Below, one piece after another: positions 1,444-63,861 of a DNA stretch of 64,000 bases (the first letter of the stretch is position 1; each line of letters opens with the position of its first letter). Origin of the DNA: Arenimonas daejeonensis. GTDB taxonomy: Bacteria; Pseudomonadota; Gammaproteobacteria; Xanthomonadales; Xanthomonadaceae. The notes under the pieces are model-generated. The model ran no database searches, had not been told where the DNA came from, and was given only the letters and a program-made list of their open reading frames with translations. The translations under genes were made by a program, and so were the position numbers. The stretch is from NCBI RefSeq assembly GCF_007993735.1, contig NZ_CP042453.1, forward strand, positions 372,001 to 436,000. Reading direction: 5' to 3'.

Positions 1444-1448
1444 ATCAC

Positions 1449-1991: not shown

Positions 1992-1993
1992 CG

Positions 1994-2388: not shown

Positions 2389-2391
2389 TTG

Positions 2392-3090: not shown

Positions 3091-3141
3091 CTCAATGAAG
3101 CTAGAGAACGCACTTCTAAAAGATCAGGGCAAATCTGGAAG

Positions 3142-3429: not shown

Positions 3430-3479
3430 CTCATCATTCAAGCCGACGCCTTCGGCGCGGCTTAACTAGGGCGTTAGGC
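3424..3479 (+). repeat. attC site 7
   Basis: Palindromic site from GCCTAAC to GTTAGGC with TTCG loop. Confidence 0.9.
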
Positions 3480-3482
3480 CTC

Positions 3483-4399: not shown

Positions 4400-4470
4400 G
4401 TGTCAAACGACACCCAGTTTCACGCATTAAGGCGACACCCAGATTTACGCACCTCGGGCCGGGGTGAAGG

Positions 4471-6490: not shown

Positions 6491-6647
6491 GCCCGCTCCC
6501 GTCCAGGACGAAAGCCAACGAGGCTACGGGGTCGACCCGGAGGTGCGTAAATCTGGGTGTCGCCTTAGCGGCAGATTAGGTGTCGCCTTACAACATCCAG
6601 GCAGCGGCACATCATCCCCACCGGGTATTCGCTGCGGCAACGCTCGA

Positions 6648-6951
6648 TCACCGTGTACCGCTCGGTGACTGCTTCGCGAAGAACGTTGCCGCGTCTCTTA
6701 AAAATCCCGCTCCTTCGTCACCCGACCCAGCTCGCGCTTGAGGCGGGCGAGCTCTTCATCGCGGGGCGTGCCACCCCAGGAAAGGCCTTGGTTCCGCCGG
6801 CGTCGGCTTCCCGCACCCAGCGGGTCAGCAAGGCCGGGTTGACCCCGACCTCCAGGGCGATCTGGCGGCAGCTGGACTTCGACCGGCGGACCAGTTCAAC
6901 CAGCTCGTGCTTGTACTCCGGGCTGTAACGCTTGCGCTTGGACATGGACAC
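6648..6951 (-). pseudogene. IS3-family OrfA (HTH protein), frames broken
   Basis: It starts MSMSKRKRYSPEYKHELVEL, with helix-turn-helix SSCRQIALEVGVNPALLTRW, as in the IS3-family OrfA that binds the IS ends. Continuity needs two corrections: a missing G near 6775 (after TKAFPG) and a missing T near 6703 (in RDFLRDAATFFAKQSPSGTR). OrfB would follow by -1 frameshifting but is broken by the IS21 element. ATG is preceded by AAAGGAGTG, a good ribosome site. Confidence 0.8.
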
Positions 6952-7014
6952 TCCTTTTCCCCAGTATGGGGCTTAGTGGAAGTGTCCGCAGAATCGGGGT
7001 AGAACCCTAGCGGC

Positions 7015-7070
7015 ACCTGACAACTCACTCAAGCCGACGCCTTCGGCGCGGCTTAACCAAGGCGTCAGGC
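7015..7070 (+). repeat. attC site 8
   Basis: Runs from ACCTGAC to GTCAGGC. The inner stem and TTCG loop match sites 1-7, but both outer cores carry compensating T-to-C and A-to-G changes. It is the end of the cassette that holds the IS elements. Confidence 0.85.
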
Positions 7071-7113
7071 CACGCAAGCGTTTCCCCAGCGGTTCGACAC
7101 AAAGGAGACCCTG

Positions 7114-7558
7114 ATGGCTATCACCATTCGCCCTGTCTCTCCCGCCGACCACGATCAGTGGGAGGTACTTTATTCAGGCTATGCCGACTTTTACAAAGTG
7201 CACCAGACGCCAGAGATGCGCGCTACCGTCTGGTCCTGGCTGAACGACAACTCGCACGAGCTGGAAGGGTTTGTTGCCGTGAACGAGGCAGGCGGGATTG
7301 TCGGCATCGCGCACTACCGTCCATTCTCCCGCCCGCTCTCGGCAACCGTGGGCGGATTATGGACGATCTGTTCGTTAGCCCGCGGCGCGCGGACAGCAAG
7401 CAGGTAAACAGTTGATCGCCGCCATTGCACAAGTGGGGCGGGAGCGGAAGTGGTCGGTCATACGCTGGTTGACGGCCGAAGACAACTACCGCGCCAGGAG
7501 CTCGTACGACAAAATTTCCACCCGGACGAACTTCCTTACTTACGACCTCAAGCTTTAA
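7114..7558 (+). CDS. Cassette 9: GNAT acetyltransferase (two frameshifts)
   Basis: The product starts MAITIRPVSPADHDQWEVLYSGYADFY, typical of GNAT N-acetyltransferases. After correcting the frame near 7357 and near 7400 it reads MDDLFVSP (beta 4), then the acetyl-CoA loop region and KQLIAAIAQVGRERKWSVIRWLTAEDN, ending YDKISTRTNFLTYDLKL. Substrate unknown. The ATG has AAGGAG seven bases upstream. Both breaks look like single missing bases; real decay in an old cassette is the alternative. Confidence 0.75.
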
Positions 7559-7564
7559 TCCTCG

Positions 7565-7626
7565 GCCTAACAAATCATTCTGGCCGAAGCCGCTTCGCGG
7601 CACGGCTCAACCAGGACGCCAGGTGC
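7565..7626 (+). repeat. attC site 9, degenerate
   Basis: Starts with an intact GCCTAAC and has an inner stem (GGCCGAAGCCGCTTCGCGG...), but the distal core has decayed from GTTAGGC to GCCAGGT. Confidence 0.7.
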
Positions 7627-7629
7627 CAC

Positions 7630-7992
7630 ATGCAAGACATAAGTCGCAACTTGAGTCCAGGCAGAGTGGTTATTGTCGGCACCCTCGTCGTCAATGTTCC
7701 TGTGCTGACCCTATTGTTTGGCCCGGGCTTTGCTGCCACCCGGCTTGGATATGAAGACTGGTTCCTCTACATCCTCGCGGCTTCTTTCTTCACCGCATGG
7801 AGTTGGTGGTCGTTTGCGTTGCCGCGATGGCGGCTTTGGGCCTACGAACGCGTAAAGAGTACTGGCGCGGTCCATGCCAGAGCGCTCGCTGCAGGTTTGG
7901 TCTGGCCCCGGGGCAGCCTCCTGACGCGGACGGAGTTCCAGAATGCCGACATGCGCAATCGTCAACTAGAGCTCGAGCGTGATTTTCCCTAG
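7630..7992 (+). CDS. Cassette 10: small membrane protein
   Basis: The 120-residue product begins MQDISRNLSPGRVVIVGTLV and has two or three hydrophobic segments (about 12-34 and 44-62), followed by a charged C-terminal tail (NADMRNRQLELERDFP) that would face the cytoplasm. The ATG is a few bases after attC 9. No family recognised. Confidence 0.7.
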   Translation: MQDISRNLSPGRVVIVGTLVVNVPVLTLLFGPGFAATRLGYEDWFLYILAASFFTAWSWWSFALPRWRLWAYERVKSTGAVHARALAAGLVWPRGSLLTRTEFQNADMRNRQLELERDFP

Positions 7993-7998
7993 GCTGGA

Positions 7999-8053
7999 AC
8001 CTGACAGATCATTCAAACCGACGTCTTCGGCGCGGCTCAACCCAAGGCCTTGG
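7999..8053 (+). repeat. attC site 10, degenerate
   Basis: ACCTGAC at the left, an inner stem AAACCGACG/CGCGGCT with TTCG loop, and a decayed right core (GGCCTTGGCC). Probably no longer an efficient recombination site. Confidence 0.6.
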
Positions 8054-8068
8054 CCTACAAAGGTATTT

Positions 8069-8470
8069 ATGCGGGCTCTCATCATTGTTGCCACCATGGC
8101 GCTTGGCATTCTTGCGATGCCTTCTTCCGCCTCCTTTACCAAGAAGACCGTTGACACGCGATTCGTTGGATTCTGGGAACTTGATTTCGACGAGGACGGA
8201 ACCCAACGGGACACGATGGAGTTCACCGCGGATGGAAGGTATGTAATGCATGGCACGAGTTGCGAAATCATGCAGAGCTTTCCGTACCACGTCCATCGCG
8301 GCGACCTGTTCGTAGCCCTTCACGTTCCCGGGAAGGGGCCGATTGCGATGGTCTTCCACAGAAACAAGGATGGACGCTTGAGCTTTACTTCGCCGCGAAC
8401 GCGCCAGAACGCTTACTACAAGAAACTGACCACCAATCCATGCATTGCAGCCGCCGTGGATCCTGACTAG
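8069..8470 (+). CDS. Cassette 11: small exported protein
   Basis: The 133-residue product has a signal peptide (MRALIIVATMALGILAMPSSA). The mature part (FVGFWELDFDEDGTQRDTMEFTADG...) resembles small lipocalin-like or beta-sandwich periplasmic proteins in pattern, with alternating hydrophobic strands and two cysteines. I assign no family. Start ATG 8069 was chosen because it opens the signal peptide. Confidence 0.7.
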   Translation: MRALIIVATMALGILAMPSSASFTKKTVDTRFVGFWELDFDEDGTQRDTMEFTADGRYVMHGTSCEIMQSFPYHVHRGDLFVALHVPGKGPIAMVFHRNKDGRLSFTSPRTRQNAYYKKLTTNPCIAAAVDPD

Positions 8471-8517
8471 TCATTCAAGCCGACGCATACGGCGCGGTTC
8501 AACAAAGGCACCAGGCC
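8461..8517 (+). repeat. attC site 11, degenerate; distal end of the array
   Basis: TCCTGAC at the left, an inner stem AAGCCGACG/CGCGGTT with an ATAC tip instead of TTCG, and right core ACCAGGC. It is the last recognisable attC in the window. Confidence 0.6.
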
Positions 8518-48429: not shown

Positions 48430-48530
48430 CTGTCACGAAATGACAAGTTATTGTCGCCGTTTGGCAAGAATCGCAGCTCGCTTCCTCCCTATAGTCGAAC
48501 GCAACCGGCCCCTGACAAGGGGCCTTTTTA
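48430..48530 (+). promoter_or_regulatory. Operator, -10 box and leader hairpin of the DUF1302 operon
   Basis: The 40-bp operator at 48430-48469 has TGTCA-N5-TGACA, ATTGTCGCC and TTTGGCAAGA elements. TATAGT at 48490-48495 is the likely -10. Eleven bases later a hairpin GGCCCCT/AGGGGCC (48507-48524) is followed by TTTTTA. The same arrangement occurs in reverse at 63770-63861. Confidence 0.8.
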
Positions 48531-48597: not shown

Positions 48598-50472
48598 GTG
48601 AAGTCATTGCACACAAGGAAGGCGTCCCCGAAGACGTCCAAGCGCCTGCTCAGCACCATGATCCTGGCCGCTCTGGCGGCCACCGGCAGCGCCGGCGCGG
48701 TCGAGATCAAAACCGGCAATCCGGACCTGGTCCTGCGCTGGGACAACACGGTCAAAATCAACCTGGCCAACCGGGTCGAGAAAGAAGATCCGTCCATCCT
48801 CGCCAGCCCGAACTTCGACGACGGCAACCGCAACTTCGGCCGCGGCATGGTCTCCGAACGCCTGGACCTGCTGACCGAGTTCGATCTCGTCTGGCAGGAC
48901 CGCATGGGCTTCCGCGTCAGCGCCGCCGGCTGGTACGACGCCGCCTACGGCAACCTCGAGCGGGGCAGCCCGGCCACCTCCAACCACCTGGAGAACGGCC
49001 GCGCCACCGTCGGCCTGAGCGACGCGACCGACAAGTACTTCCACGGCCCGTCCGGCGAACTGCTGGACGCCTTCGTATTCGCCAAGTTCGACCTGGGCAA
49101 CGTGCCGCTCAACGTCAAGGCCGGCCGCCACACCGTGTTCTGGGGCGAAGCCATGCTCAGCCCGGTGCACAGCCTGAGCTACGGCCAGTCTGCCCTGGAC
49201 CTGGGCAAGCTGTTCTCGGTCCCGGGCACGGAAGCCAAGGAACTGTTCCTGCCGCGCGAAGCGGTCTCGATGCAGCTCCAGGCCACGCCGGAACTCTCGT
49301 TCGCGGGCCAGTACTTCTTCGACTGGGAACAGGCGCGCATCCCCGAAGCCGGTTCCTTCCTGGGTTTCAACGACCACCTGCTGCGTGGCGGCGAGTCCTT
49401 CATCTTCGGACCCGCGGCCGTCAGCCCGGCCAACCCGCTGGGCATCAACCGCCTGGTGCGCGGCAGCGACAGCGACCCGGACGACACCGGCGACTGGGGC
49501 CTGTCCACGCGTTGGAGCCCGGACTGGCTCGACGGCACGCTCGGCGCCTATTACCGGGTCACCGCCGACATCCTGCCGCAGGGCAACGCCACCCCGGCCG
49601 TGCGTCCCAACACCCCGCCGGCCGTCTGCGGCGCGCTGGGCAGCGTCATGCTGGGCCCGACCACCTGCTACATCAATCCGGGTGCGGCGACCGTACCGGA
49701 GATCATCGGCGGCACCATCGGCCGCTACGGCGCGGCCTATGCCGGCGACATCAGGATCTACGGCCTGAGCTTCTCCAAGAACCTGTGGGGCACCAGCGTC
49801 GGCGCCGACCTGAACTACCGCAAGGACATGCCGCTGCTGAGCGACATCGTGAACGTGCTGCCGGCCTCGTTTGCCCCGTTCGCCCCGCTGCTGCCGCCCG
49901 GCAGCCTGTTCGCGGCACCGGAAGGCGGCGAAACCGGTGGCGCGCGCGGCAACACCTGGCACGGCGTGCTGAACACCTTCACCACCTTCGGTGAAACGCC
50001 GGTCTGGGATTCGGCCAACCTCATCGTCGAGCTGACCTGGAACCGTTGGGCCGACGTCACCTCGGGTGCCGCCGTCTTCAAGGGCCGCGACAACTACCTG
50101 GTCGCCGGCCCCGGCGGCACGATGGTGACGCCGGCCGACAAGGTGACGAAGGACTTCTACGGCCTGGCGGTCAATTTCACGCCGACCACGTACCAGATCT
50201 TCCCGGGCGCCGACCTGTCGCTGCCGATCAGCTACTCGCGCGGCCTGAGCGGCAACTCCGCCGTGCTGCTGGGCGGCAACGAGGACGCCGGCAGCTATTC
50301 GTTCGGCGTGGCCCTGGACCTGCGTTCGAAGTACCGCTTCGACCTCAAGTACGTGGACTTCTTCGGCGACACCACCGTCAATGCGCTGAACGCGATCTCC
50401 TCCTCCGGCGGCGCCAACGCGCTGCTCAGCGACCGTGGCTTCGTGGTTCTGACCTTCAAGACCACGCTGTGA
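48598..50472 (+). CDS. DUF1302-family outer-membrane protein
   Basis: The 624-residue protein has a long signal region (SKRLLSTMILAALAATGSAGA), then beta-strand-rich text from DLVLRWDNTVKINLANRVEK to GFVVLTFKTTL, ending in a Leu after an aromatic-rich last strand, as in beta-barrels. DUF1302 proteins occur in operons with DUF1329 and MMPL transporters for hydrophobic substrates. Start GTG 48598 follows GGGAGGGTG. First gene of a five-gene operon behind the shared operator. Confidence 0.9.
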   Translation: MKSLHTRKASPKTSKRLLSTMILAALAATGSAGAVEIKTGNPDLVLRWDNTVKINLANRVEKEDPSILASPNFDDGNRNFGRGMVSERLDLLTEFDLVWQDRMGFRVSAAGWYDAAYGNLERGSPATSNHLENGRATVGLSDATDKYFHGPSGELLDAFVFAKFDLGNVPLNVKAGRHTVFWGEAMLSPVHSLSYGQSALDLGKLFSVPGTEAKELFLPREAVSMQLQATPELSFAGQYFFDWEQARIPEAGSFLGFNDHLLRGGESFIFGPAAVSPANPLGINRLVRGSDSDPDDTGDWGLSTRWSPDWLDGTLGAYYRVTADILPQGNATPAVRPNTPPAVCGALGSVMLGPTTCYINPGAATVPEIIGGTIGRYGAAYAGDIRIYGLSFSKNLWGTSVGADLNYRKDMPLLSDIVNVLPASFAPFAPLLPPGSLFAAPEGGETGGARGNTWHGVLNTFTTFGETPVWDSANLIVELTWNRWADVTSGAAVFKGRDNYLVAGPGGTMVTPADKVTKDFYGLAVNFTPTTYQIFPGADLSLPISYSRGLSGNSAVLLGGNEDAGSYSFGVALDLRSKYRFDLKYVDFFGDTTVNALNAISSSGGANALLSDRGFVVLTFKTTL

Positions 50473-50504
50473 CCACCGTCCAGGCATCCCATCAGGAACT
50501 CACC

Positions 50505-51863
50505 ATGAAATATGTGAAGACGATCCTCGCCGGCGCCCTGCTGGCCGCCCTCGGCACCGCGCAGGCGGCGGTCAGCCCGGAAGAAGCCAGGCAGCTGGGC
50601 GACACCCTGACCCGCGTCGGCGCCGAAACCGCCGGCAATGCCGACGGCACCATCCCGGCCTACACCGGCGGCCTGACCACGCCGCCGGCGGGTTTCACCG
50701 CCGGCAGCACCGTGCGGCCCGACCCGTTCGCCGGTGAGAAGCCGCGCCTGACCATCACCTCGAAGAACATGGCGCAGTACGCGTCGCAGCTGACGGTGGG
50801 CGCGCAGGCGCTGCTGAAGAAGTACCCGGACTACCGCATCGACGTGTACCCGACCCACCGCACCGTGGCCCTGCCCGACCGCGTGCTCGACGCCACCGCC
50901 GCCAACGCCACCCGCGCCAGCACCAGCAACGGCGGCCTGGGCATTTCCGGCGCCATCGGCGGCTACCCGTTCCCGATCCCGAAGACCGGTTACGAGGCGA
51001 TGTGGAACCACCTGCTGCGCTACGTCGGCGTCGCCAGCAACTTCCGCTACGACAACTGGAACGTGGACGCCTCCGGCAAGCCGGCGCTGGCCACCAGCGG
51101 CAAACTCTTCGTCGAATACCCGTACTACGACCCGAAGAACACCGCCCCGGCCGCGGAAACCGACGTCTACTTCCGCACCAAGATCTTCTACAACGCCCCG
51201 GCCCGCCGCGCCGGTGAAGCGCTGATGGCCGTGGACGTGGTCAACCCGCTCGAGCGCCCGCGCCGCGCCTGGCTGTACCTGCCGGGCCAGCGCCGCGTGA
51301 AGCTGGCGCCGGACATCTCCTACGACACGCCGAACCCCGGCACCGCCGGTTCGGCCACGTACGACGACTCCTGGATCTTCAACGGTGCGATGGACCGCTA
51401 CGACTTCAAGCTGGTCGGCAAGAAGGAGGTGCTGGTTCCGTACAACACCTACCGCCTGACCACGCACAAGAGCGCCGCCGAAGTGACCACGCCGCGTTTC
51501 CTCAACCCGGACCTGGTGCGCTGGGAACTGCACCGCGTCTGGGTGGTCGAGGCGACGCTGAAGCCGGGCAAGCGCCACATCTACGCCCGCCGCACCTTCT
51601 ATCTGGACGAGGACAGCTGGACCGCGCTGTCGGCTGACCAGTACGACGCCAGCGGCTCGCTCTACCGCGCGTCCTTCGCGCACATGTCGCCGAGCTACGA
51701 CGCGAAGACGCCCAACGCCGAGACCCAGGTGTTCTACGACCTGACCTCGGGCGTCTACAACGTCAGCTTCCTGATGGGCCCGTATGGCGGCGTGCAGTAC
51801 ACCGACCCGCTGCCGGCCAACCAGTGGTCGCCCGACGCCCTCGCCGGTGCTGGCATCCGCTGA
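50505..51863 (+). CDS. DUF1329-family exported protein (LolB-like fold)
   Basis: The 452-residue protein has a signal peptide (YVKTILAGALLAALGTAQAA). The body holds GNADGTIPAYTGGLTTPPAG, the family's N-terminal signature, then RRAWLYLPGQRRVKLAPDIS, YDFKLVGKKEVLVPYNTYRL and FYLDEDSWTALSADQYD. DUF1329 proteins are periplasmic, distantly LolB-like, and probably ferry lipid-like molecules between the barrel and the inner-membrane pump. It is 32 bases behind the DUF1302 gene. Confidence 0.92.
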   Translation: MKYVKTILAGALLAALGTAQAAVSPEEARQLGDTLTRVGAETAGNADGTIPAYTGGLTTPPAGFTAGSTVRPDPFAGEKPRLTITSKNMAQYASQLTVGAQALLKKYPDYRIDVYPTHRTVALPDRVLDATAANATRASTSNGGLGISGAIGGYPFPIPKTGYEAMWNHLLRYVGVASNFRYDNWNVDASGKPALATSGKLFVEYPYYDPKNTAPAAETDVYFRTKIFYNAPARRAGEALMAVDVVNPLERPRRAWLYLPGQRRVKLAPDISYDTPNPGTAGSATYDDSWIFNGAMDRYDFKLVGKKEVLVPYNTYRLTTHKSAAEVTTPRFLNPDLVRWELHRVWVVEATLKPGKRHIYARRTFYLDEDSWTALSADQYDASGSLYRASFAHMSPSYDAKTPNAETQVFYDLTSGVYNVSFLMGPYGGVQYTDPLPANQWSPDALAGAGIR

Positions 51864-51948: not shown

Positions 51949-53052
51949 ATGAACCTCCCTGCCCGACGCCTGGCCGTTCCGTTCGGACTGGCCGCCCTGT
52001 TCGGCGTGACGACGCTGTTCGCCGCACCGACCGTGCCGGGCGAACGTTTCGTCGACGTGCTCGACCAGCCCGCCATGGAAAGCGCCCTGGTCACCCAGCG
52101 CCTGCTGCAGGCCAGCGCCATCGCCGGCGACCGGCTGGTCGCGGCCGGCGCACGTGGCCACATCGTGTATTCGGATGACGGCGGCACGAGCTGGCAACAG
52201 GCACGGGTGCCCGTCAGCGCCGACCTGACCGCGCTGTTCTTCGTCGATGCGATGCGCGGCTGGGCGGTGGGCCACGAAGGCGTGGTGCTGCACACCGCCG
52301 ACGGCGGCGTGTCCTGGGACCTGCAGCTGGACGGTCGCCGCGCCAATGCGCTGGTGCTGGAACACGTGAACAGCCTGCCCGCCGATACCGACCCGGTCCT
52401 GCTCGAAACCCTGAAGTCCGAAGCCGGACGCGCCGTGGCGGACGGCCCCAGCCTGCCCTTCCTCGACGTCTGGTTCGCCGATGCGCAGGAAGGTTTCGTG
52501 GTCGGCGCCTACAACCTGATCTTCCACACCCGCGACGGCGGCAAGACCTGGGAACCCTGGGTCGAACGCACGCAGAACGAGCGCTTCTACCACCTGTACG
52601 GCATCCGTGGCAGCGAAGACGGTGTGTACATCACCGGCGAACTGGGCCTGGTGCTGCGCCTGGATGCCGACGCCGGCCGCTTCCTCGCGTTGTCCACACC
52701 CTACGAAGGCAGCTGGTTCGGCCTGCTGGCAAAACCCGGCCTGGTGCTCGCCTATGGCCTGCGCGGCACGGCTTTCCGATCGTTCGACGGCGGCCAGACA
52801 TGGGAAGCCGCGACCACAGGCATCACCACTTCGATCACCGCCGGCCAGGTGCTGGCCGACGGCCGCCTGCTGCTGTGTTCGCAGGCGGGCGACGTGCTGG
52901 TCAGCGACGACGACGGCGCCAGTTTCCAGCGACTCGCGTTGAAGGCGCCGATGTCCTACGCCGGCCTCGCCGCCGCCGGCGACACGCTGTTGCTCAGCGG
53001 ACCACGCGGCGTGCGTGTCGAACGCCTGCCACCGCCCGTCGCCACGCCGTAA
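51949..53052 (+). CDS. Ycf48-like BNR-repeat exported protein
   Basis: The 367-residue protein has a signal-like N-terminus and several repeats of the sialidase/BNR type: IVYSDDGGTSWQQARVP, VLHTADGGVSWDLQLDG, IFHTRDGGKTWEPWVER and FRSFDGGQTWEAATTG, forming a beta-propeller. In such operons it accompanies the MMPL pump and may act as its periplasmic assembly partner, by analogy with Ycf48/HCF136. Ninety bases behind DUF1329. Confidence 0.9.
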   Translation: MNLPARRLAVPFGLAALFGVTTLFAAPTVPGERFVDVLDQPAMESALVTQRLLQASAIAGDRLVAAGARGHIVYSDDGGTSWQQARVPVSADLTALFFVDAMRGWAVGHEGVVLHTADGGVSWDLQLDGRRANALVLEHVNSLPADTDPVLLETLKSEAGRAVADGPSLPFLDVWFADAQEGFVVGAYNLIFHTRDGGKTWEPWVERTQNERFYHLYGIRGSEDGVYITGELGLVLRLDADAGRFLALSTPYEGSWFGLLAKPGLVLAYGLRGTAFRSFDGGQTWEAATTGITTSITAGQVLADGRLLLCSQAGDVLVSDDDGASFQRLALKAPMSYAGLAAAGDTLLLSGPRGVRVERLPPPVATP

Positions 53053-53079: not shown

Positions 53080-55490
53080 TTGAATACGTCCCGCCCATTG
53101 CCCGACGAGATGCCGGTCGTCCGGTCCATCGAGGATTTCGACCACCGTTCCGGACACGTGTTCGAGCGAGCCATCTTCAACAACCGGCGCTGGATCGTGC
53201 TGGGCTGTCTCCTGCTGACCCTGCTGTTCGGTTTCCAGGCCACGAAGCTGACGGTAAACGCCGGCTTCGAGAAGATGATCCCGCACGGCCACGCCTACGT
53301 GCAGAACTACCTGGAGAGCCGCGGCAGCCTGCGCGGCCTGGGCAATTCCGTGCGCGTGGTGGTCGAGAACACCGACGGCGACATCTTCGATCCGGAATAC
53401 CTCGAGATCCTCAAGCAGGTCAACGACGAGCTGTTCCTGATACCCGACGTCGACCGCGCCTGGATGAAGTCGATCTGGACGCCGGCGGTGCGATGGAGCG
53501 AGGTCAACGAGGAAGGTTTCGTCGGCGGGCCGGTGATGCCCGACAACTACGATGGCTCGCCGGCATCGGTGGATGCGCTCAAGCTCAACATCCGCCGCGC
53601 CAACATCGTCGGCAACCTGGTGGCCAACGACTTCCGTTCCAGCATGGTGTTCGTGCCCCTGCTCGAAACCAATGCCGAGACGGGCCAGCGGCTGGACTAC
53701 CACGCCTTCTCGCAGCAGCTCGAACAGCGCATCCGCGCCAGGTACGAAGGCGGCGACGACGGCAAGGTCAGGATCCACGTGATCGGCTTCGCCAAGCTCG
53801 TCGGCGACCTGATCGAAGGCCTGGCCAAGGTCGCCAGCTTCTTCCTCGCGGCGGCGCTGATCGCCGGCCTGATCATCTTCCTCTACACCCGCTGCCTGCG
53901 CAGCACCCTGCTGGTGGTCGCCTGCTCGGTTGTCGCGGTGGCCTGGCAGCTGGGCCTGGTGCAACTGCTCGGCTTCGAGCTCGACCCGTTCTCGGTGCTG
54001 GTGCCCTTCCTGATCTTCGCCATCGGCGTCAGCCATGGCGCGCAGAAGATGAACGGCATCATGCAGGATGTCGGCCGCGGCACCCATCGCCTGGTCGCCG
54101 CCCGCTACACCTTCCGCCGGCTGTTCCTGGCCGGCCTGACCGCCCTGCTGGCCAACGTGGTCGGCTTCGCCGTGCTGATGGTGATCGACATCCCGGTGAT
54201 CAAGGAGCTGGCGCTGACCGCCAGCATCGGCGTCGGCGTGCTGGTGTTCACCAACCTGATCCTGCTGCCGGTGCTGCTGTCGTATGTCGGCGTCAGCCCG
54301 GCGGCCGCGGCGCGCAGCCTGCGCGAAGAGACCGAGCAGGAACGCGGCCGCGGCCTGGGCGCGGTCTGGAACCTGCTCGACCGCTTCACGGAGCGTCGCT
54401 GGGCGCTGGCGGCGATCGGCTGTGCGGCGGTGCTGGCGGTCGGCGGTCTGTGGATCAGCCGCGACCTGCAGGTCGGCGACCTGGATCCGGGGGCGCCGGA
54501 GCTGCGCAAGGATTCGCGCTACAACCAGGACAACGCCTACATCACCGCGAACTACGCGCTGTCGAGCGACCTGTTCGCGGTGATCGTGCAGACGCCCGAC
54601 GACGCCTGCCTCAACTACAAGACCCTTGGTGCAGGCCGACCGCCTGGGCTGGGCGCTGCAGCAGGACCCCTCGGTGCAGACCACGGTGTCGCTGGCCGAC
54701 GCGGTGCGCAACATCACCGCCGGGTCCTTCGAGGGCAATCCGAAGTGGCTGACGCTCAACCGCAACCAGGGCGTGATCAATTATTCGGGCCAGCAGGCCA
54801 CGGTGCTGAACCCTGACCTGTTCAACACCGAATGTTCGGTGCTGCCGGTGATCGCCTACCTGTCCGACCACAAGGCGGCCTCGCTCAAGCGCGTGGCGGC
54901 GATCGCGGAGGATTTCGCCGCGCGCCACAACGACGCCGACGTGACCTTCAAGCTCGCGGCCGGCTCGGCTGGCATCGAGGCCGCGACCAACGAAGTGGTC
55001 GGCCGCGCCAGCCGTTCGATGCTTCTGTACGTGTTCGGCGCCGTGGCGCTGCTGTGCTTCGTCGCCTTCCGCAGCTGGCGGGCGGTGGTGGTCGCGGTGC
55101 TGCCGCTGATGCTGACCTCGATCCTGTGCGAGGCGCTGATGGTCGGGCTCGACATCGGCGTGAAGGTGGCGACCCTGCCGGTGATCGCGCTGGGCGCCGG
55201 CATCGGTGTCGACTACGCCCTGTACCTGCTCAGCGTGCAGCTGGCGCAGCAGCGTGCCGGCGTGCCGCTCGCGGCCGCCTACCGGAATGCCGTGAGCTTC
55301 ACCGGCAAGGTGGTCGCGCTGGTGGGCATCACCCTGGCGGCGGGCGTCTTCACCTGGGCGTTTTCGCCGATCAAGTTCCAGGCCGACATGGGCATCCTGC
55401 TCACCTTCATGTTCGTCTGGAACATGATCGGCGCCCCTGGTGCTCATTCCCGCGCTCTCGCATTTCCTGCTACGCAAGGTGGAGGCCTGA
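53080..55490 (+). CDS. MMPL/RND-superfamily lipid transporter (two frameshifts)
   Basis: Inner-membrane proton-driven transporter with two six-helix halves. It starts MNTSRPLPDEMPVVRSIEDF from a TTG. First half: FGFQATKLTVNAGFEKMIPH, then IFAIGVSHGAQKMNGIM. After a break near 54627 (ACCCTTGGTG) it continues VQADRLGWALQQDPSVQTTV and the second-half motif LGAGIGVDYALYLLSVQLAQ. A second break near 55436 (one extra C) is followed by LVLIPALSHFLLRKVEA. Corrected length about 803 residues. It moves hydrophobic molecules across the envelope. Confidence 0.9.
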
Positions 55491-55491
55491 C

Positions 55492-57129
55492 ATGTTCGGT
55501 TTGATGCAGGAACACCCGCTGCTGGTCTCGTCGCTGATCGAGCATGCGGTGGCCAGCCATCCCGGCGTCGAGATCGTCTCGCGCACGGTCGAAGGCCCCG
55601 TCCACCGCTGCACCTGGCGCGACATCCACCGGCGCGCAAAACAGGCTGCCAACGCACTGACTGCGCTGGGCGTGAAGCCGGGCGACCGGGTCGCGACCCT
55701 GGCCTGGAACGGCTACCGGCACATGGAGCTGTACTTCGGCGTGTCGGGCATGGGCGCCGTGCTGCATACGGTCAACCCGCGGCTGTTCCCGGAGCAGCTC
55801 GAATACATCATCAACCACGCCGAAGACGGCGTGCTGTTCTTCGACCCGAGTTTCATCGCGCTGGTCGAGAAACTCGCCCCCAAGCTCGGGAGCGTGCGCG
55901 CCTTCGTGCTGATGGCCGACCGTGCGCACATGCCGGAGACAACGATTCCAGGCCTGCTGTGTTACGAGGAGCTGCTGGCGGCGCAGTACGATGAATTCAC
56001 CTGGCCCGACATCGACGAACGTTCGGCGGCCTCGCTGTGTTACACCTCGGGCACCACCGGCAAGCCCAAGGGCGTGCTGTATTCGCACCGCTCTACCGTG
56101 CTGCACGCCTTCGGTGCCTGCACCGTGGACAGCCTGGCCGTTTCACGCAAGGAAACCGCACTGCTGGTCGTGCCGATGTTCCATGTCAACGCCTGGAGCA
56201 TGCCCTACGCGGCCGCGATGAGTGGCGCCAGGCTGGTGCTTCCCGGTCCGGCCCTGGACGGCGCCAGCGTCTATTCGCTGCTGCGCGACGAACAGGTGAC
56301 ACTGGCGCTGGGAGTTCCCACCGTATGGTTGATGTTGCTGCAGCACGTTTCAGCCGCAGGACTGAAGCCCTACGCCGAACTGGCGCTGCATCGTGTCGTG
56401 ATCGGCGGCGCCGCGGTTCCGCGGGCCATGATCGAAGCCTTCGAGGACGATTTCGGCGCGATCGTCGTGCATGCCTGGGGCATGACCGAGACCTCGCCGG
56501 TGGGCACGGTCAACAATCTGTTGCCGACACAGCGCGCGCTGCCGCCGGAGCAACGCCTGGACGTGCAGACGACACAGGGGCGGGCCGTGTTCGGCGTTCG
56601 CCTGAAGCTGACCGATGGCGAGGGCCGCACCCTGCCCCACGACGGCCAGGCCGCCGGACACCTTAAGATCCGCGGCCCCTGGGTCGCGAGCGCCTACTAC
56701 CGCGACGAAGGCGGTCCGATCCTGGATGACGAGGGCTGGTTCGACACCGGCGACGTGGCGACCATCGACTCCGATGGCTACATGCACATCACCGACCGGT
56801 CCAAGGACGTGATCAAGTCCGGCGGCGAATGGATTTCTTCGATCGCGATCGAGAACGCCGCCATGGGCCACCCGCTGGTCGCCGAAGCCGCCGTGATCGG
56901 CATCGCCCACCCGAAGTGGCAGGAGCGCCCGCTGCTTCTGGTGGTCGTCAAACCGGGCCAGACCCTGGAGCGTGAGGTGGTGCTGAACTACCTCAAGGAT
57001 CGCATCGCCAAGTGGTGGCTGCCCGACGACGTGCTGTTCGTACACGATCTGCCGCACACTGCCACCGGCAAACTGCTCAAGGCCAAGTTGCGCGAGCAGT
57101 TCCGCGACTACCGTTTCCCCGACGCCTGA
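55492..57129 (+). CDS. Fatty-acyl/medium-chain acyl-CoA synthetase
   Basis: Adenylate-forming enzyme of 545 residues. [20 protein letters not shown] is the P-loop (A3), [10 protein letters not shown] is A5, [20 protein letters not shown] is A7, [20 protein letters not shown] is A8, and the catalytic Lys lies in [13 protein letters not shown] (A10). It resembles AlkK-type medium-chain ligases that activate imported carboxylic acids. The ATG follows GGAGG and is 1 base behind the transporter stop. Last gene of the plus-strand operon. Confidence 0.93.
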
Positions 57130-57198: not shown

Positions 57199-57761
57199 TC
57201 AGCGGTCCAGCCGCTCGATCAGTTCCAGCGCCTGCGGCCATTCGCCGTAACCCGCGGCCGGATTGAGATGGCCGACCGGGCCGATATCAGGAACCCGCTG
57301 CCCCAGTCCTGCGCCAACGACTGCGCCCGCGCGAACGTGCATAGCGGGTCGTCCTGGCTTGCCGCCAGCAGGCTCGGGAACGGCAAGGGCTCGCGCGGGA
57401 TCGGCAGCCAGCCGTGTTTCTGGAGATCGTCCGTGCTCGGATAACCCGCCGGGAACCGGCTCTCCATGTCCGCCGGCGTGGCCAGCAGTGCCCCCTTGAT
57501 CGGGCGATTGGGCCGCGACAGCCGCGACCAGTGCGCCAGCATCATCACGCCGGCGCTGTGCGCCACGACGATGACCGGGCCGCTGATCGTGGCCAGGGCA
57601 TGGTCCAAGGCGTCGACACGCGCGGCGCGGCTCAGCTTGTCCCGTTCGAGCGGCGGCACGGTTTGCACCCTCGAGAGCCTGGCGGCCAGCAGGGTCTGCC
57701 AGTGCTCCGGCACGTGTTCACGCAGGCCGGGGACGATGAGAACGGTGGTGTCCTGGGTCAT
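57199..57761 (-). CDS. RBBP9/YdeN-type small serine hydrolase (one frameshift)
   Basis: The protein is MTQDTTVLIVPGLREHVPEH, then VIVVAHSAGVMMLAHWSRLS (nucleophile Ser in AHSAG) and LLAASQDDPLCTFARAQSLA (Asp). The frame breaks near 57294; the intended end is IGPVGHLNPAAGYGEWPQAL (catalytic His in GHLN) and ends at 57199. Corrected length about 187 residues. Last gene of the minus-strand operon; may cleave an ester in the pathway. Confidence 0.85.
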
Positions 57762-57794: not shown

Positions 57795-58790
57795 TCAGTT
57801 CCCAAGCCACAACAGCAACAGCACCAGCGCCGCGAGGAAGACGGTCTGGCCGAGCATCAGCAGCACCGGTCGGATGCCGACCGTGGCCAGTTCCCTGAGC
57901 TGGATCTTCATGCCCAGTGCGCCGATCGCCGTGACCAGGCACCAGGTGGACAAACTGCTGCCGAAGGCCTGCAGCGGGGGCGTGATCGCACCGAGGCTGC
58001 CGAGCACGGCCAGGCCAAGGAAAGCCACGGCGAACCATGGCAGCAGTGGCGGCCGCTCGCCGCTTTGATGCCCGCCGCGGGCGCGGGTGATCATGACCGC
58101 GACGATGATGACCGGCAGCAGCATGGCCACGCGGATCAGCTTCACCACCGTGGCGGTGTCGCCGACCTCGTGCGAGAGGCTGTAGCCGGCGCCCACCACC
58201 TGGGCGACGTCGTGGATGGTGCCGCCGATGAATACACCGGCATCGATCGGGTCCAGCCCGAGCGCCCGCGTGATCACCGGGTAGATGATCATCGCCGCGG
58301 TCGACAGAGCCGAGACGCCGATCACGGTGAACAGGGTCGCGCGTTCCTTGCCCGGATGCGCCGGCAACGCCGCCGCCAGCGCCAGCGCCGCGGATGCACC
58401 GCAGATCGCGGTCGCGCCGCCGGAAAGCAGGCCGAACAGCACGTTGAAGCCCATCGCGCGCGCCACCAGCATCGACACGGCGATGGTGAGCACCACCGAG
58501 ACGACCACCAGCAGCACCGGATGCCAGCCCAGCGAGGCGATCTGTTCCAGGGTGATGCGGGTGCCCAGCAGGGCCACGCCCAGGCGCAGCACGCCGCGCG
58601 CGGCCAGATCGATGCCTGGCTTGCAGGGACCGTCCGTCGACAGGAAGTTCATCGCCATGCCCAGCAGCAGCGCGAACAGCATCACCGGCGCGCCGTACTG
58701 GCTGGCCAGCGAACGCGCGGCGATGGCGACGACGACGCTGGCCAACAGGCCGGGCAGGTAGCGTCCGGCGGACACCTGCAGTCTGTTCAT
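57795..58790 (-). CDS. YeiH-family (UPF0324) membrane exporter
   Basis: The 331-residue protein has about ten membrane segments: GLLASVVVAIAARSLASQYG, LFALLLGMAMNFLSTDGPCK, LSGGATAICGASAALALAAA and IGGTIHDVAQVVGAGYSLSH. The family is annotated as putative sulfate exporters; related proteins accompany sulfonate catabolism. It overlaps the DsbA-family gene by 4 bp (ATGA). Its presence with a TauD enzyme hints at sulfite or sulfate export. Confidence 0.87.
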   Translation of the reverse strand: MNRLQVSAGRYLPGLLASVVVAIAARSLASQYGAPVMLFALLLGMAMNFLSTDGPCKPGIDLAARGVLRLGVALLGTRITLEQIASLGWHPVLLVVVSVVLTIAVSMLVARAMGFNVLFGLLSGGATAICGASAALALAAALPAHPGKERATLFTVIGVSALSTAAMIIYPVITRALGLDPIDAGVFIGGTIHDVAQVVGAGYSLSHEVGDTATVVKLIRVAMLLPVIIVAVMITRARGGHQSGERPPLLPWFAVAFLGLAVLGSLGAITPPLQAFGSSLSTWCLVTAIGALGMKIQLRELATVGIRPVLLMLGQTVFLAALVLLLLWLGN

Positions 58791-59447
58791 GCGGATCCGG
58801 TCGTGGCCGGCGCCAGCATCGCCCGGCGCATGGTCGCGACCAGGGTGTCGGCATCCTGCGCGCCGGACAGGGCCAGGCGCTGGTTGAACATGAAATGTGG
58901 CACGCCGGTGATCGCGCGCCCGACCGGAAGCTCGGCGGCGGCGCCTGCTCCTGCACCGGCGATCCGTTCCGGCGGCACGCCGACTTCCCCGGCCAGCCGC
59001 TGCAGCGTCGCGGCATCGCCGATGTCCTCGCCACGCTGGAAGTAGGCGGCGAACAGGCGCTCGAGCATCGCCTCATGCAGTTCCGGCTCGCCCAACCGTG
59101 CGACCCGGCGCAACAACCCATGCGCACGCGCCGTATTCGGAAAGCGTTCGATCCGCGCCAGGTCGATGTCGAGGCCGGCGCCGTCGGCCGCCTGCGCGAC
59201 CTGTCGCTGCCGCCGCCGCACGGCCTCGGGCGAACCGAGGCGGCGTTCGTAGAACTCCGCGAAGGGCAGGCCCTGCTCCGGCACGTCGGGCACCAGCTGG
59301 ATCGGATACCACATCGTCGCCACCACGATGTCCGGATGCTGGGACGCGAACTGTTCGCGCGCGACATCGAGCTGGCGCTTGCCGATGAAACAAGGGACAG
59401 ATCAGGTCGAAGTCGATGCCGATCGTGAGCCTTTTTGCGCCGCTCAA
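58787..59447 (-). CDS. DsbA-family oxidoreductase, FrnE-type (frameshift)
   Basis: 2-hydroxychromene-2-carboxylate-isomerase/FrnE-like thioredoxin-fold protein. It begins with TTG overlapping the MFS stop (TTGA): SGAKRLTIGIDFDLICP. Two bases appear to be lost near 59391 in the CPWC-FIGKRQ region; the rest reads VVATMWYPIQLVPDVPEQGL and ends FMFNQRLALSGAQDADTLVA. Cytoplasmic, no signal peptide. Corrected length about 220 residues. Confidence 0.83.
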
Positions 59448-60765
59448 ACCGACGCCCCCATGCCGGCCCCAACCGCCTGCAGGCGACCCACCTGCTGCAC
59501 ATCGGCCAGGTAGTTCTGCTTGGCGAACCAGAACACGGCCGCGGCCGCCACGCTGATCAGGGGCACCATCTGGAACGCGCTCGCCAGGCCTGGGGCATCG
59601 GCCAGCAGGCCGGTGACCAGCGGCCCGGCGGCCAGGCCGAGCAGGTTGTTCACCAGGGTCAGCATCGCGAACGCCGTGCCATGGATCGGCAGCGGCGTGA
59701 GGTTGGCGACCATGGCGCCGGCGGGCCCGCTGGTGCCGGCGGCCAGGAACATGCCCAGCGCGATCATCACCAGCTGCGGGGTGCCGTGCGGCAGCGCGAA
59801 GGCCAGCGACAACAGGGCGCAGCTGCCCAGCGCGTAGGCGATCGCCAGGCTGAATTTGCGCTCCGGACGGCTCCGGCAAAGTCGGTCGCTGAGCATGCCG
59901 CAGGCGATCATGCCCAGGCCGGCGACCAGCACGATCATGGCGGCCACGCCACCCGCGGCGTCGGTCGCCATGGCGTAGTAGCGGTTGAGGTAACTCGGAA
60001 TCCAGACGATGACCGTTCCGCCCACGAACAGCTGCAGGCCGCTGCCGACGTAGGCACCGAGCACCGAGCGGCTGTTGACCAGGCTACGCAGCGGCACCTT
60101 CGCCGCCGTCACGGTGGCGGGCCGGGTGTCGCCGATCTGCGACGGCGGTGTGATGCGTTTTTCCCTGACGACGATGGGATAGATGAGCGCCAGCACCAGG
60201 CCGAACAGGGCCATGGCCGCGAACGCCCAGCGCCAGCCCATGCTGGCGGCGATGGCACCGCCCAGTGCCATGCCCAGCACCGAACCGAACATGCCGCCGG
60301 CCATGAAGGCGCCGGTCAGCGTCGCCCGCATGTGTTTCGGAAACACCGACAGCACCACGGCGACACCGACGCTGCCATAGGCCGCCTCGCCGACACCGAC
60401 GAAAAACGCGCGGCGAGCATCTGCGGATAGTCCTGCGCCAGCCCACAGGCCAGGGTCGCGAGGCTCCACACCGCCGCCATGATCGCCAGGCTCTTCACCC
60501 GCCCGAAGCGGTCGGCCAGCAGCGACAGGGGGAAGGTCAGCAGCCCCACCATCAGCGCGACGATGCCGCTGAGCAGGCCGAGCCGGGCATCGGTCAGCGC
60601 CCATTCCGCCTTCAGCAGCGGGAACACCGCGTTCAGCACCTGGCGGGACATGTAGTCCGAGAGCAGCAGGCCGAAACTCAGTGCGAACACGACCCAGGCG
60701 TAACGCCGCGGGATGCGTGCACCAGGATCGTCTTCGCCGATGGTCGGAAGGGTGTAGTGCGCCAT
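59444..60765 (-). CDS. MFS transporter of the organic-acid type (one frameshift)
   Basis: It starts MAHYTLPTIGEDDPGARIPR, then helix 1 YAWVVFALSFGLLLSDYMSR and the motif SLLADRFGRVKSLAIMAAV. The break near 60404 lacks one T in a T6 run; the text resumes FFVGVGEAAYGSVGVAVVLS, a feature of the sphingolipid-transporter-like/organic-acid MFS group, and continues to FWFAKQNYLADVQQV. About 440 residues. Probably imports the pathway substrate or an intermediate. Confidence 0.86.
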
Positions 60766-60791
60766 GTCGTGCTGCCGGGTCGAAGGGTGGA

Positions 60792-61847
60792 TCAGGCCGG
60801 GGAAGGAACGCCTTTCCAGACCGGCCGGCGGTTTGGCGCGAAGCCGTTCGCCGCCAGGGTCTCGTCGGCATCCTTGTAGAACGTGCCGATCCGGTAGATC
60901 TCGCGAGCCTCCTTCGCCGTCGCCACATCGCGGCCGAACTCCTTCGCGATCCGCACCAGCTGCTCGACCTGCTCGACGCTGCCCATCTTGCGGTCGCGCT
61001 TCTGCGTCCAGAGGTTGTCCTCGTTGCCGCAGCGCACGTGCAGGCCCATGGCGATCGCCATCATGTTCAGCGGCAGCACGTTGAGCATGGAGGACTCCAG
61101 CGTCAGCACCGAACCGTCCGGGCAGGCGCGCACGAAGTTGGCCAGGTTGTAGATGTTCGGCGAATCGAAGCCACCGCCGATCGCCACCCAGGTCAGGATC
61201 AGCGGCACGTTGCAGGTGCCCTTGCGCATCATGCGCTCCACCGTCTCGAACTGGGCGATGTTGGCCAGCTGGAAGTGGGTCTGGATGCCCTTGGCCGACA
61301 GCCGGCGGATGTGTTCCTCGACCCACTCCGGGCCGGCCGGGATGGTCATCTCGCGGTAGGCGCGGTAGCCCTCGGGCGTGCCCAGGCTGGTGCCGGCGAT
61401 GTCGGCCTCGCACATCTGCTCGACCACGTTCATCTGGTTGGTGTTGATCGCGATCGTCACCTGGTCCGGCGCCGGCGTCAGCTCCGCCAGCATGTGCCGG
61501 GTGTCGTCCGACAGCCACTTTGCCACCTCGCCCTCGCCTTCCGGCATGAACGAGATCGAACCGCCGACCTGCAGGATCATGTCCGGCACGCGGGCGCGGA
61601 TGCCGGCCAGCAGTTCGTTGAACATGGACAGGCGCTTGCTGCCCTTGCCGTCGAGCTCGCGCACGTGCAGGTGCAGCACGGTGGCGCCGGCGTTGTAGCA
61701 GTCCACCGCCTTCTGGATGTGTTCCTCCATCGTCACCGGGATGTCTTCCGGGAAATCGGCCGGCAACCACTCCGGGCCATAGGGAGCGACGGTAATTACC
61801 AGCTTCTGCTGGTTCTCCGGGAACAGCGACCCATCGATGAAGTTCAT
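60792..61847 (-). CDS. Beta-keto acid cleavage enzyme (BKACE, DUF849)
   Basis: The 351-residue TIM-barrel enzyme has VITVAPYGPEWLPADFPEDI, the zinc-binding motif TVLHLHVRELDGKGSKRLSM (two His), LQVGGSISFMPEGEG, HFQLANIAQFETVERMMR, and ANFVRACPDGSVLTLESSML to AIAMGLHVRCGNEDNLW. BKACE enzymes transfer the carbanion half of a beta-keto acid onto acetyl-CoA, giving acetoacetate and a new CoA ester. The exact substrate is unknown. Start ATG 61847 follows GGAGAG. Confidence 0.92.
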   Translation of the reverse strand: MNFIDGSLFPENQQKLVITVAPYGPEWLPADFPEDIPVTMEEHIQKAVDCYNAGATVLHLHVRELDGKGSKRLSMFNELLAGIRARVPDMILQVGGSISFMPEGEGEVAKWLSDDTRHMLAELTPAPDQVTIAINTNQMNVVEQMCEADIAGTSLGTPEGYRAYREMTIPAGPEWVEEHIRRLSAKGIQTHFQLANIAQFETVERMMRKGTCNVPLILTWVAIGGGFDSPNIYNLANFVRACPDGSVLTLESSMLNVLPLNMMAIAMGLHVRCGNEDNLWTQKRDRKMGSVEQVEQLVRIAKEFGRDVATAKEAREIYRIGTFYKDADETLAANGFAPNRRPVWKGVPSPA

Positions 61848-61893
61848 ATTCTCTCCGTGAATCAACGCGGCAAGGCGGTCGGGTGGTGGCGGT

Positions 61894-62741
61894 TCAGTAG
61901 GGCACGTCGCCGATGATCCCGGCCCGTTCCATCTTGCGGTGGCAGGGCGGGTAGTCCATCACCGCGTAGTGCTGGGTGCTGCGGTTGTCCCAGATGGCAA
62001 CGCTGTTGGGCTGCCAGCGCCAACGCACCTGGTACTCCGGGACGTGCGCCTGGCTGATCAGGTACTGCAGCAGCTGCTGCGCGCCCGCCGTGTAGTCCTG
62101 GCCGTAGCGCACGCGCCCCGGCGTGTGGAAGTTGGTGAAATGAGTGGTGAAGGCATTGACGAACAGGATCTTCTCGCCGGTGTCCGGATGCGTGCGCACC
62201 ACCGGGTGTTCGGCATCCGGAAACTGCTGCCGCAGGGCCAGCCGCTTCTCGGCCGGAAGGACGGCACCGAAAGTGGCTTCGATGCTGTGCCTGGCGCGCA
62301 GGCCGGCGATCTGCTGCTTGATGGTTTCCGGCAACTTCTCGTAGGCCAGCGCCATGTTCGCCCACATCGTGTCGCCGCCGACTGGCGGGCATTCGACGCA
62401 ACGCAGCACACAGCCGAACGGCGGTGCCTCGCGCCAGGTCGCATCGGTATGCCAGGCGTTCTCGTAGCGGTCGTTGGGCTGCTCCGGGGACTTGTAGATG
62501 CGCACCAGCCCCGGATGGTTCGGATCGCTTCCGGCCACCGGATGGTCTTCCAGCGGGCCGAAGCGGCGGGCGAAGGCCACGTGCTCGGCACGGCTGATGT
62601 CCTGGCCACGAAGGAAAAGCACCTTGTGCCGGACCAGCAGCGCGCGCAGTTATGGAACAGGCCGTCGTCGTGCACGGCGTCGGCCAGGCTGACGCCCGAA
62701 AGTTCGGCTCCGATGGCACAGGTCAGTGGCTCGACGCGCAT
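61894..62741 (-). CDS. TauD/TfdA-family 2-oxoglutarate dioxygenase (one frameshift)
   Basis: It starts MRVEPLTCAIGAELSGVSLA, breaks near 62651 (one missing base), and resumes RALLVRHKVLFLRGQDISRA. Iron ligands are AWHTDATWREAPP (His-x-Asp) and the distal His in DNRSTQHYAVMDYP. The 2-oxoglutarate Arg lies in CHRKMERAGI. About 282 residues, full family length. Such enzymes hydroxylate sulfonates, sulfate esters, phenoxyacetates and other acids. Eleven bases behind the quinone oxidoreductase gene. Confidence 0.9.
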
Positions 62742-62751: not shown

Positions 62752-63732
62752 TCAGATGACGAAGATCGAAGAGCCGGTGGTCTTGCGCGATTCCAGGTCG
62801 CGATGGGCCTGCACCGCGTCTTCCAGCGCGTACCGCTGGTTGATCTCGATGCGGATGCGGCCGGCGCCGACTTGCTCGAACAGCTCGGCAGCCAGCTCGG
62901 CCTTTTCGGCCGGGTCGGCGATGTAGTCGGCCAGCGCCGGCCGGGTCAGGTAAAGCGAACCCTTCATCGCCAGCAGCTGCGGGTTGAACGGCGGGATCGG
63001 ACCCGAGGCGGTGCCGACGCAGACCATCAGGCCGCGGCGCCGAAGCGAATTCAGCGAGGCCTCGAAGGTGTCCTTGCCGACACTGTCGAACACCACGTCC
63101 ACGCCCGTGCCACCGGTCAGCTCGCGCACGCGCGCGGCGACATCCTCGTGGCTGTAGTTGATGACGTGGTCGCAGCCATGGGCGAGGGCGAGCCCGGCCT
63201 TGGCCTCGGTCGAGACGGTGCCGATGACGGTCAGGCCGAGCAGCTTCGCCCACTGCGACACGATCAGGCCGACGCCACCGGCGGCGGCATGCAGCAGGAT
63301 CGAATCGCCGGCCTTGAACGGATGGATCCGGCGCATCAGGTAGGCCGAGGTCAGGCCGCGCATGGTCATGGCCGCGGCGGTCTCGTAGCCGATGGCCTCG
63401 GGCAGCCTGATCAGCGGCGCGGCCGGCACCAGGCGTTCGGTGCTGTAGGCGCCCAGGGTGTTGACGAATCCGGTGTAGGTGACGCGGTCGCCGACGGCGA
63501 CCTGGTCGACGCCCGGGCCCACGGCCTGGACCACGCCCGCCGCCTCGACGCCGATGCCGGCCGGCAGCGGGACCGGGTAGGTGCCGTTGCGGAAATAGGT
63601 GTCGGCGTAGTTCAGGCCGACCGCGACATGGCGCAGCCGGACTTCGCCCGGACCCGGCTCGCCGACCTCGACGGTCTCGTAGCGCAGGACTTCCGGGCCA
63701 CCGGCCCTCTGGAATCGAACGGCATGTGCCAT
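62752..63732 (-). CDS. NADPH:quinone oxidoreductase-type dehydrogenase (MDR family)
   Basis: The 326-residue zinc-free medium-chain dehydrogenase has MAHAVRFQRAGGPEVLRYET, the quinone-oxidoreductase text GLNYADTYFRNGTYPVPLPA, and the nucleotide-binding motif LLHAAAGGVGLIVSQWAKLL. It ends SSIFVI. It reduces enones or quinones with NADPH. First gene of the minus-strand operon; its start lies about 65 bases from the -10 box of the shared promoter module. Confidence 0.92.
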   Translation of the reverse strand: MAHAVRFQRAGGPEVLRYETVEVGEPGPGEVRLRHVAVGLNYADTYFRNGTYPVPLPAGIGVEAAGVVQAVGPGVDQVAVGDRVTYTGFVNTLGAYSTERLVPAAPLIRLPEAIGYETAAAMTMRGLTSAYLMRRIHPFKAGDSILLHAAAGGVGLIVSQWAKLLGLTVIGTVSTEAKAGLALAHGCDHVINYSHEDVAARVRELTGGTGVDVVFDSVGKDTFEASLNSLRRRGLMVCVGTASGPIPPFNPQLLAMKGSLYLTRPALADYIADPAEKAELAAELFEQVGAGRIRIEINQRYALEDAVQAHRDLESRKTTGSSIFVI

Positions 63733-63769: not shown

Positions 63770-63861
63770 GGCCCCGGAAGGGGCCGGACGCCTTGGACTA
63801 TAGGCAGGAGGGGTGCGCAACTCTTGCCAAAGGGCGACAATGACTTGTCATTTCATGACAG
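63770..63861 (-). promoter_or_regulatory. Operator, -10 box and leader hairpin of the quinone-oxidoreductase operon
   Basis: On the minus strand, 63861-63822 is a 40-bp operator identical at 37 positions to 48430-48469. TATAGT is at 63802-63797. Eleven bases later GGCCCC-TTCC-GGGGCC (63785-63770) forms a hairpin. The operator also lies just upstream of the divergent AraC-type gene, so the regulator probably controls itself. Confidence 0.82.

Follow-up and report, generated by a model that had tools for sequence, protein, structure and literature searches.

Two copies of a 39-bp operator and a divergent AraC-family gene in Arenimonas daejeonensis indicate a regulon of the AraC/XylS kind

We propose a model in which two convergent operons of Arenimonas daejeonensis are switched on together by an activator encoded by the AraC-family gene at 63886, with each of the two copies of a 39-bp sequence at the heads of these operons being, very probably, an operator of that activator. 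As far as sequence comparison can tell, this is a well-supported and previously uncharacterised regulon of the well-known AraC/XylS kind, and no description naming such a regulon was found in the open literature. Here the window denotes the whole stretch of DNA that was analysed, 64,000 nucleotides in length (G000:C1:372001-436000), in a genome that consists of one contig of 3.03 Mb with a completeness of 86%.

The operator pair and the genes that it encloses

The initial annotation had noticed that 37 of 40 bases are identical between 48430-48469 on the plus strand and 63861-63822 on the minus strand, and direct comparison of the two sequences gives the same count. Operator copy 1 (48431..48469, plus strand) consists of half-site 1 at 48431-48448 and half-site 2 at 48452-48469, with a period of 21 bp, and operator copy 2 (63822..63860, minus strand) consists of half-site 1 at 63860-63843 and half-site 2 at 63839-63822. 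Beyond both copies the −10-like TATAGT is present, as had also been claimed: after 20 nt at 48490-48495 on the plus strand, in the promoter of the DUF1302 operon, and after 19 nt at 63802-63797 on the minus strand, in the promoter of the QOR operon. The pair is unique in the window, again in agreement with the earlier reading, with the 39-base pattern at up to three mismatches occurring at exactly two places and in none of 100 dinucleotide shuffles. In the whole 3.03-Mb genome no third copy was found either with the 29-base core at up to three mismatches (the reversed control giving 0) or with a 39-position profile at E<=0.1, the profile itself containing both window sites. With a matrix built from nine sites, of which two are the window's own, scores of 61.3 and 58.7 are obtained for the two copies, and no other place in the window exceeds 9.6.

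Between the copies lie five plus-strand and seven minus-strand genes, which form the two inward-facing operons described before, with several of the frames being broken. The plus-strand operon begins with a DUF1302 outer-membrane-type, AmeA-like protein (48598..50472, Pfam PF06980), followed by a DUF1329 protein that is AmeB-like by gene order (50499..51863, PF07044), a YCF48/BNR-repeat protein that is AmeC-like by gene order (51949..53052, PF14870), an AmeD-like MMPL/HAE3-type RND transporter (53080..55504, assigned by eye and by gene order, with the frame broken at about 54.6 kb) and an acyl-CoA ligase of the 3-(methylthio)propionyl-/long-chain fatty-acid-CoA ligase family (55492..57129, NCBIfam NF005426, 847 bits against a cut-off of 822). 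The minus-strand operon, read from its head, contains an NADPH:quinone reductase-type oxidoreductase (QOR; 62752..63732, NCBIfam NF008024, 359.2 bits against a cut-off of 348), a TauD-family alpha-ketoglutarate dioxygenase (61894..62741, PF02668, frame broken near 62.65 kb), for which the nearest solved chain is 5vn6, a beta-keto acid cleavage enzyme (BKACE; 60792..61865, PF05853), an MFS transporter (59444..60780, by eye, frame broken near 60.40 kb), a DsbA-like oxidoreductase/isomerase (58787..59326, PF01323, the 5' part being in another frame), a YeiH-family membrane protein of the putative sulfate exporter family (57795..58790, PF03601), which reaches 134.4 bits against TIGR00698 and is thus under the cut-off of 232.6, and an RBBP9-like serine hydrolase (57219..57761, PF06821, the 3' end being out of frame). 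Relative to the cluster of Pseudoxanthomonas koreensis, the frames are broken in the MMPL gene at about 54.6, the hydrolase gene at 57.29, the DsbA-like gene at 59.39, the MFS gene at 60.40 and the TauD gene at 62.65 kb. With the genome being a single contig of 86% completeness, indels introduced during assembly seem a likelier origin of these five broken frames than real decay.

The regulator gene begins on the plus strand at 63886, with its start codon 25 bp from operator copy 2, continues through the end of the window at 64000 to G000:C1:436893, and encodes a protein of 335 aa (P0001), with an Arabinose_bd domain at residues 23-203 and an HTH_18 domain at 257-329. The C-terminal helix-turn-helix is of the AraC type, with PF12833 (E 1.2e-15) and PF00165 (E 1.3e-6) both above their cut-offs. 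Against the NCBIfam equivalog models the protein stays under the cut-offs for QhpR (179.9 of 250 bits), GliR (142.1 of 570) and CypR (79.2 of 500).

Two observations concern the surroundings. When the left-flank gene was compared with 26 genomes of the genus, the best match outside its own genome was 48% identical (G1344), with the others among the matches listed being 24-31% identical. At 1075-8482 on the plus strand of the window, eleven copies with up to three mismatches of a 20-base CTAACAAnTCATTCAAGCCG-like sequence are present, where 0.01 would be expected by shuffling; we take these repeats to resemble integron attC cassette ends, and they are perhaps a chromosomal integron cassette array.

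Architecture of the operator

From 38 loci of the window, the named relatives and Pseudomonas, 55 different sites were collected, with the consensus TGTCATnAAATGnnAAGT-N3-TGwCGnnnwATGnnAAGC, that is, a direct repeat of two half-sites with a period of 21 bp. At a shift of 21 the self-identity is 60%; the remaining shifts between 8 and 29 give 12-29%, save the shift of 26, which gives 47% over 13 positions. With the −10 element called as the best TAnnnT 14-25 nt past the operator, the gap between the operator and the −10 element is 19 nt in 47 sites and 20 nt in the other 8. In all 55 sites the −35 element is poor, with no more than two of the six bases of TTGACA being matched at a distance of 16-18 bp from the −10 element (one match in 19 sites and two in 36). 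If the spacer is 17 bp long, the first 3-4 bases of the −35 element would lie within half-site 2. Because of the constant gap of 19-20 nt and the poor −35 element, the promoter appears to be activator-dependent, and the geometry of two half-sites together with the poor −35 element fits a site for an activator of the AraC/XylS type.

The same overlap could be read in the opposite sense, namely that the AraC protein or another protein at the sites represses both operons and that induction lifts the repression. A protein bound over the −35 region could block the polymerase, and with the operator only 25 bp before the start codon of the AraC gene, autorepression of the regulator gene would be plausible. 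We consider repression unlikely: the constant gap and the poor −35 element in 55 of 55 sites fit an activator-dependent promoter, and XylS, which is an activator, likewise binds direct repeats, as it is described in PMC5481539.

A further reading arises from the initial annotation itself, in which the palindrome TGTCA-N5-TGACA was taken as the motif. This part of the annotation does not stand, the palindrome being incidental and occurring in only 4 of the 55 different sites, which are both window copies, the QOR copy of P. koreensis and the copy of Lysobacter niastensis. That the palindrome is the operator of a different, unlinked dimeric regulator, with the AraC gene being an incidental neighbour, would account for these four carriers and is nevertheless very improbable, because the columns of the direct repeat are near-invariant across the 55 sites whereas the palindrome is confined to the four, and because 57 of the 58 genomes that have the operator also have the AraC gene.

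Regulator and operator in other genomes

The regulator is 90% identical to its counterpart in P. koreensis, 85% in L. prati, 85% in L. niastensis and 59% in Pseudomonas resinovorans DSM 21078; we set aside a fifth match, which is 23% identical over a short stretch and comes from a MAG of Flavobacteriaceae. Among 299 genomes of the order, the 29-base core was found in the own genome and in G282 only, and a strict exact core pattern gave no match in a set of genome contigs that may exclude the own genome, with P. koreensis differing in that core. In P. koreensis the 12-gene convergent layout is identical, both operators are present and an unbroken RND homologue is situated at the matching place. 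In L. niastensis the layout contains an extra gene between the operons, a site adjoins the AraC gene (the QOR copy) and no operator was found on the DUF1302 side of the locus. In L. prati a weaker site with 10 of 39 mismatches adjoins the AraC gene, the locus ending before the DUF1302 side. It is also noted that in L. niastensis (L007:13400-18045) the regulator gene is followed by methylcitrate-pathway-like genes (aconitase-like and PrpF-like, by eye), a neighbourhood unlike that of the regulator gene of A. daejeonensis, which has a sigma-factor-like gene (by eye).

In P. resinovorans, diverged sites with 14 and 17 mismatches precede both operons. From a longer list of DUF1302 matches in this species, 11 loci (10 genes) were scanned; the two genes that adjoin such an AraC gene have a site with 14 of 39 mismatches, and the remaining loci scanned gave nothing better than 17 mismatches. 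More broadly, 30 loci centred on the best regulators were scanned with the nine-site matrix and all 30 have a site, with top scores of 34.5-49.3; elsewhere in these loci the next best score is 15.4, not counting a second site at the seed locus L027. As 29 of the 30 AraC-centred loci contributed no site to the matrix, they are its independent test. The site is followed by the hydrolase and DUF1302 genes in 29 of the 30, and in L028 by a CoA ligase gene instead. A further 40 regulator-centred stretches, 20 of them of 20 kb and many from the same genomes, have at least one site each, in 40 of 40 cases. In the control, for which each of the 40 stretches and the window were shuffled five times (3.43 Mb in total), no place scored above 25 bits, the highest score being 19.1.

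This comparison bears out the earlier view of the two operons as a single regulon, since operators are present at both operon heads not only in P. koreensis but also in 19 of 20 Pseudomonas stretches of 20 kb, where the second operator precedes QOR-TauD-BKACE genes at a distance of about 8-12 kb. The exception is L076, a paralogue locus in which a CoA ligase gene replaces the hydrolase operon. At L076:3897-3935 the paralogous AraC gene (in G959, 55% identical to that of the window) has its own diverged site before the CoA ligase gene, and this regulator with its site is perhaps a sister regulon. In these Pseudomonas stretches the regulator gene is beside the hydrolase-DUF1302 operon and in Xanthomonadaceae it is beside the QOR operon, and despite the differing arrangement both promoters retain the site. 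The pairing does not extend to every relative, as L. niastensis is without the DUF1302-side copy and in one Pseudomonadaceae genome (G917) the single operator precedes sorAB. That the two copies are a recent promoter duplication with no shared regulation today, as the identity of 37 of 40 bases in the window might suggest, is extremely unlikely, because the flanks differ in ungapped comparison (18 of 60 positions identical upstream, 9 of 19 between the operator and the −10 element and 25 of 60 beyond the −10 element) and because separate, diverged sites precede the same two operons in Pseudomonas in another gene order.

The divergent AraC gene had been named as the obvious controller, which is supported by the co-occurrence of the regulator and the operator among 298 Pseudomonadaceae genomes. 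The regulator (E<=1e-70, with at most seven candidates scored per genome) is present in 57 of these, and the operator, searched under strict filters with profile R1 (E<=0.001), in 58; both are present in 57, the operator alone in one (G917) and the regulator alone in none (Fisher p 7e-61, with shared ancestry ignored). Profile R1 was made of 30 sites, by sequence only, from the window, P. koreensis, two Lysobacter species and Pseudomonas; because the profiles include sites from their source genomes, the scores of R1 and of the matrix in those genomes are partly circular. In G917 the lone strong operator at L147:7982-8020 is situated before sorAB (sulfite dehydrogenase). No close regulator was found in that genome, the best relative having E 5.7e-50, so that either the operator is owned by another regulator or the regulator has been lost.

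Among 398 genomes of the phylum, a regulator profile at E<=1e-90 found the regulator in 15, the own genome included, and returned 20 loci. Scanning 15 of these loci, with the own and the Pseudomonas-like ones excluded, showed a site (E<=1) in four, the match in one of these spanning just 17 positions. The order AraC gene, site, QOR gene, with the 21-bp repeat, is seen in G1277 and G1197, which belong to other families of the class; in G1267 the regulator is present and no operator was found genome-wide at E<=0.1. A single-sequence regulator search among 369 genomes of the class (E<=1e-40, at most five candidates per genome) gave the own genome only, the sample excluding the carriers found later in the phylum.

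It had been suggested to look whether the matches in related genomes always precede DUF1302 and quinone-oxidoreductase/TauD genes. They do precede such genes, and in some genomes the operator has further targets as well. We chose by hand 20 further Pseudomonas sites among the matches listed and assigned the genes behind them by tblastn, so that their proportions are no census. The genes are PHA synthase in nine cases, another PhaC-like gene in two, sorA in two, a second CoA ligase in two, QOR in one, DUF1329 in one, a small lipoprotein-like gene in two and a chemoreceptor-like gene in one, the last two kinds being assigned by eye. The QOR case is L155, in which the QOR operon is on its own contig, and the sites at L168 and L169 are situated 10-13 kb from a regulator gene. 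An operator also precedes PHA synthase at L138, L139 and L141 in addition to the nine chosen loci, and the genomes with a PHA synthase site include G664, G772 and G734. The one PhaC protein that was checked with Pfam and NCBIfam, that of L141, scores under the cut-off of the class II PHA synthase model that it matches, the end of this protein being cut off. SorA and SorB were checked by Pfam/NCBIfam on L147, and the operator before sorA occurs in three genomes only, G917, G923 and G928. G821 and G772 have one extra site each, before a gene with no evident link. The PHA synthase sites suggest that storage polymer synthesis belongs to the response.

Proposed mechanism and comparison with known systems

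Based on our model, the AraC protein would bind both copies on sensing a hydrophobic acid or the product of one, and the bound protein, most likely a class II activator, would recruit RNA polymerase to both promoters. The plus-strand operon would then supply an AmeABCD-like export system and an acyl-CoA ligase, and the minus-strand operon, induced at the same time, would supply a catabolic set of an oxidoreductase, a dioxygenase, BKACE, transporters and a hydrolase. A hydrophobic acid, or its product, is a fair guess for the inducer because, by analogy, AmeABCD is connected with monoterpene tolerance and DUF1302/DUF1329 proteins are needed on Tween 20, as discussed below.

The TauD protein, the YeiH family and sorA give a hint of a link to organic sulfur. 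Tentatively, and with the odds clearly against it, we can imagine that the regulon, which Pseudomonadaceae would share with a few Xanthomonadaceae and with genomes from other families of the class, serves the use of a hydrophobic carboxylic acid that is sulfonated or otherwise bears sulfur. The TauD-type dioxygenase would then release sulfite, which the SorA-type sulfite dehydrogenase would oxidise, and the YeiH-family protein would export sulfite or its product. Processing of the carbon skeleton would fall to the CoA ligase and BKACE and storage of the carbon to the class II PHA synthase, and the AmeABCD-like pump would deal with the toxic substrate.

The proposed regulon joins DUF1302, DUF1329 and a conserved set of enzymes in one controlled unit, for which both a regulator and a transferable promoter can be named, and with these two at hand the substrate becomes directly testable. 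Moreover, the operator model offers a route to more members genome by genome, as with PHA synthase, sulfite dehydrogenase and the second CoA ligase.

Among the known systems, SlfR/slf of plasmid pP62BP1 is described in PMC3346939 as an Arabinose_bd AraC regulator with predicted XylS-like repeats and a predicted organic sulfate operon. The likeness is in the Arabinose_bd AraC regulator and in the direct repeats before the operon; from what that article gives, the repeat there is TTGA(N6)AGGACA and the enzymes are a GMC oxidoreductase and an aldehyde dehydrogenase, unlike here. For PP_0765/PP_0766 of Pseudomonas putida, a DUF1302/DUF1329 pair, PMC10866462 reports that they are needed on Tween 20 and proposes a transport system. 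Both protein families are shared with the window, the likeness being one of protein family; no regulator is discussed in the part of PMC10866462 that bears on the pair.

AmeABCD of Castellaniella defragrans, as outlined in PMC6394551, is encoded by four adjacent genes, with AmeA having DUF1302 and AmeD being an HAE3 RND pump; it is reported there to act in monoterpene tolerance, and the export of hydrophobic compounds is suggested by its authors. The first four genes of the plus-strand operon apparently match this set, the first three by Pfam and the broken RND gene by eye, where DUF1302 (AmeA) and HAE3 (AmeD) were compared with that description and AmeB and AmeC were placed by gene order. Unlike AmeABCD, the set here has a CoA ligase gene joined to it and a link to an AraC gene; the main text of PMC6394551 nowhere contains the word "AraC".

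For XylS, PMC5481539 describes how this activator binds two direct repeats next to the Pm promoter, which is also the arrangement here, and a title in its reference list states that the XylS site overlaps that of RNA polymerase. The boxes described there are TGCA/GGTA, those here are TGTC/AAG, and no benzoate pathway is among the genes here.

In the form of its half-sites, the operator resembles the ARG box of the Pseudomonas AraC/XylS-family ArgR, given in PMC10963909 and PMC4997734 as TGTCGC-N6-G-N-AA repeated with 5 bp between. The Arabinose_bd N-terminus of the regulator here and its observed targets, which are other than arginine genes, set it apart from ArgR, and all sites compared here keep one spacing, whereas PMC10963909 describes a variable spacing in P. 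alloputida. In the window the half-sites are TGTCRY-N8-AA in tandem, with 16+5 giving the 21-bp period as in the ARG box; half-site 1 of the two copies reads TGTCAC/T-N8-AA, and half-site 2 of both copies reads TGTCGC-N8-AA, which is the ARG-box form.
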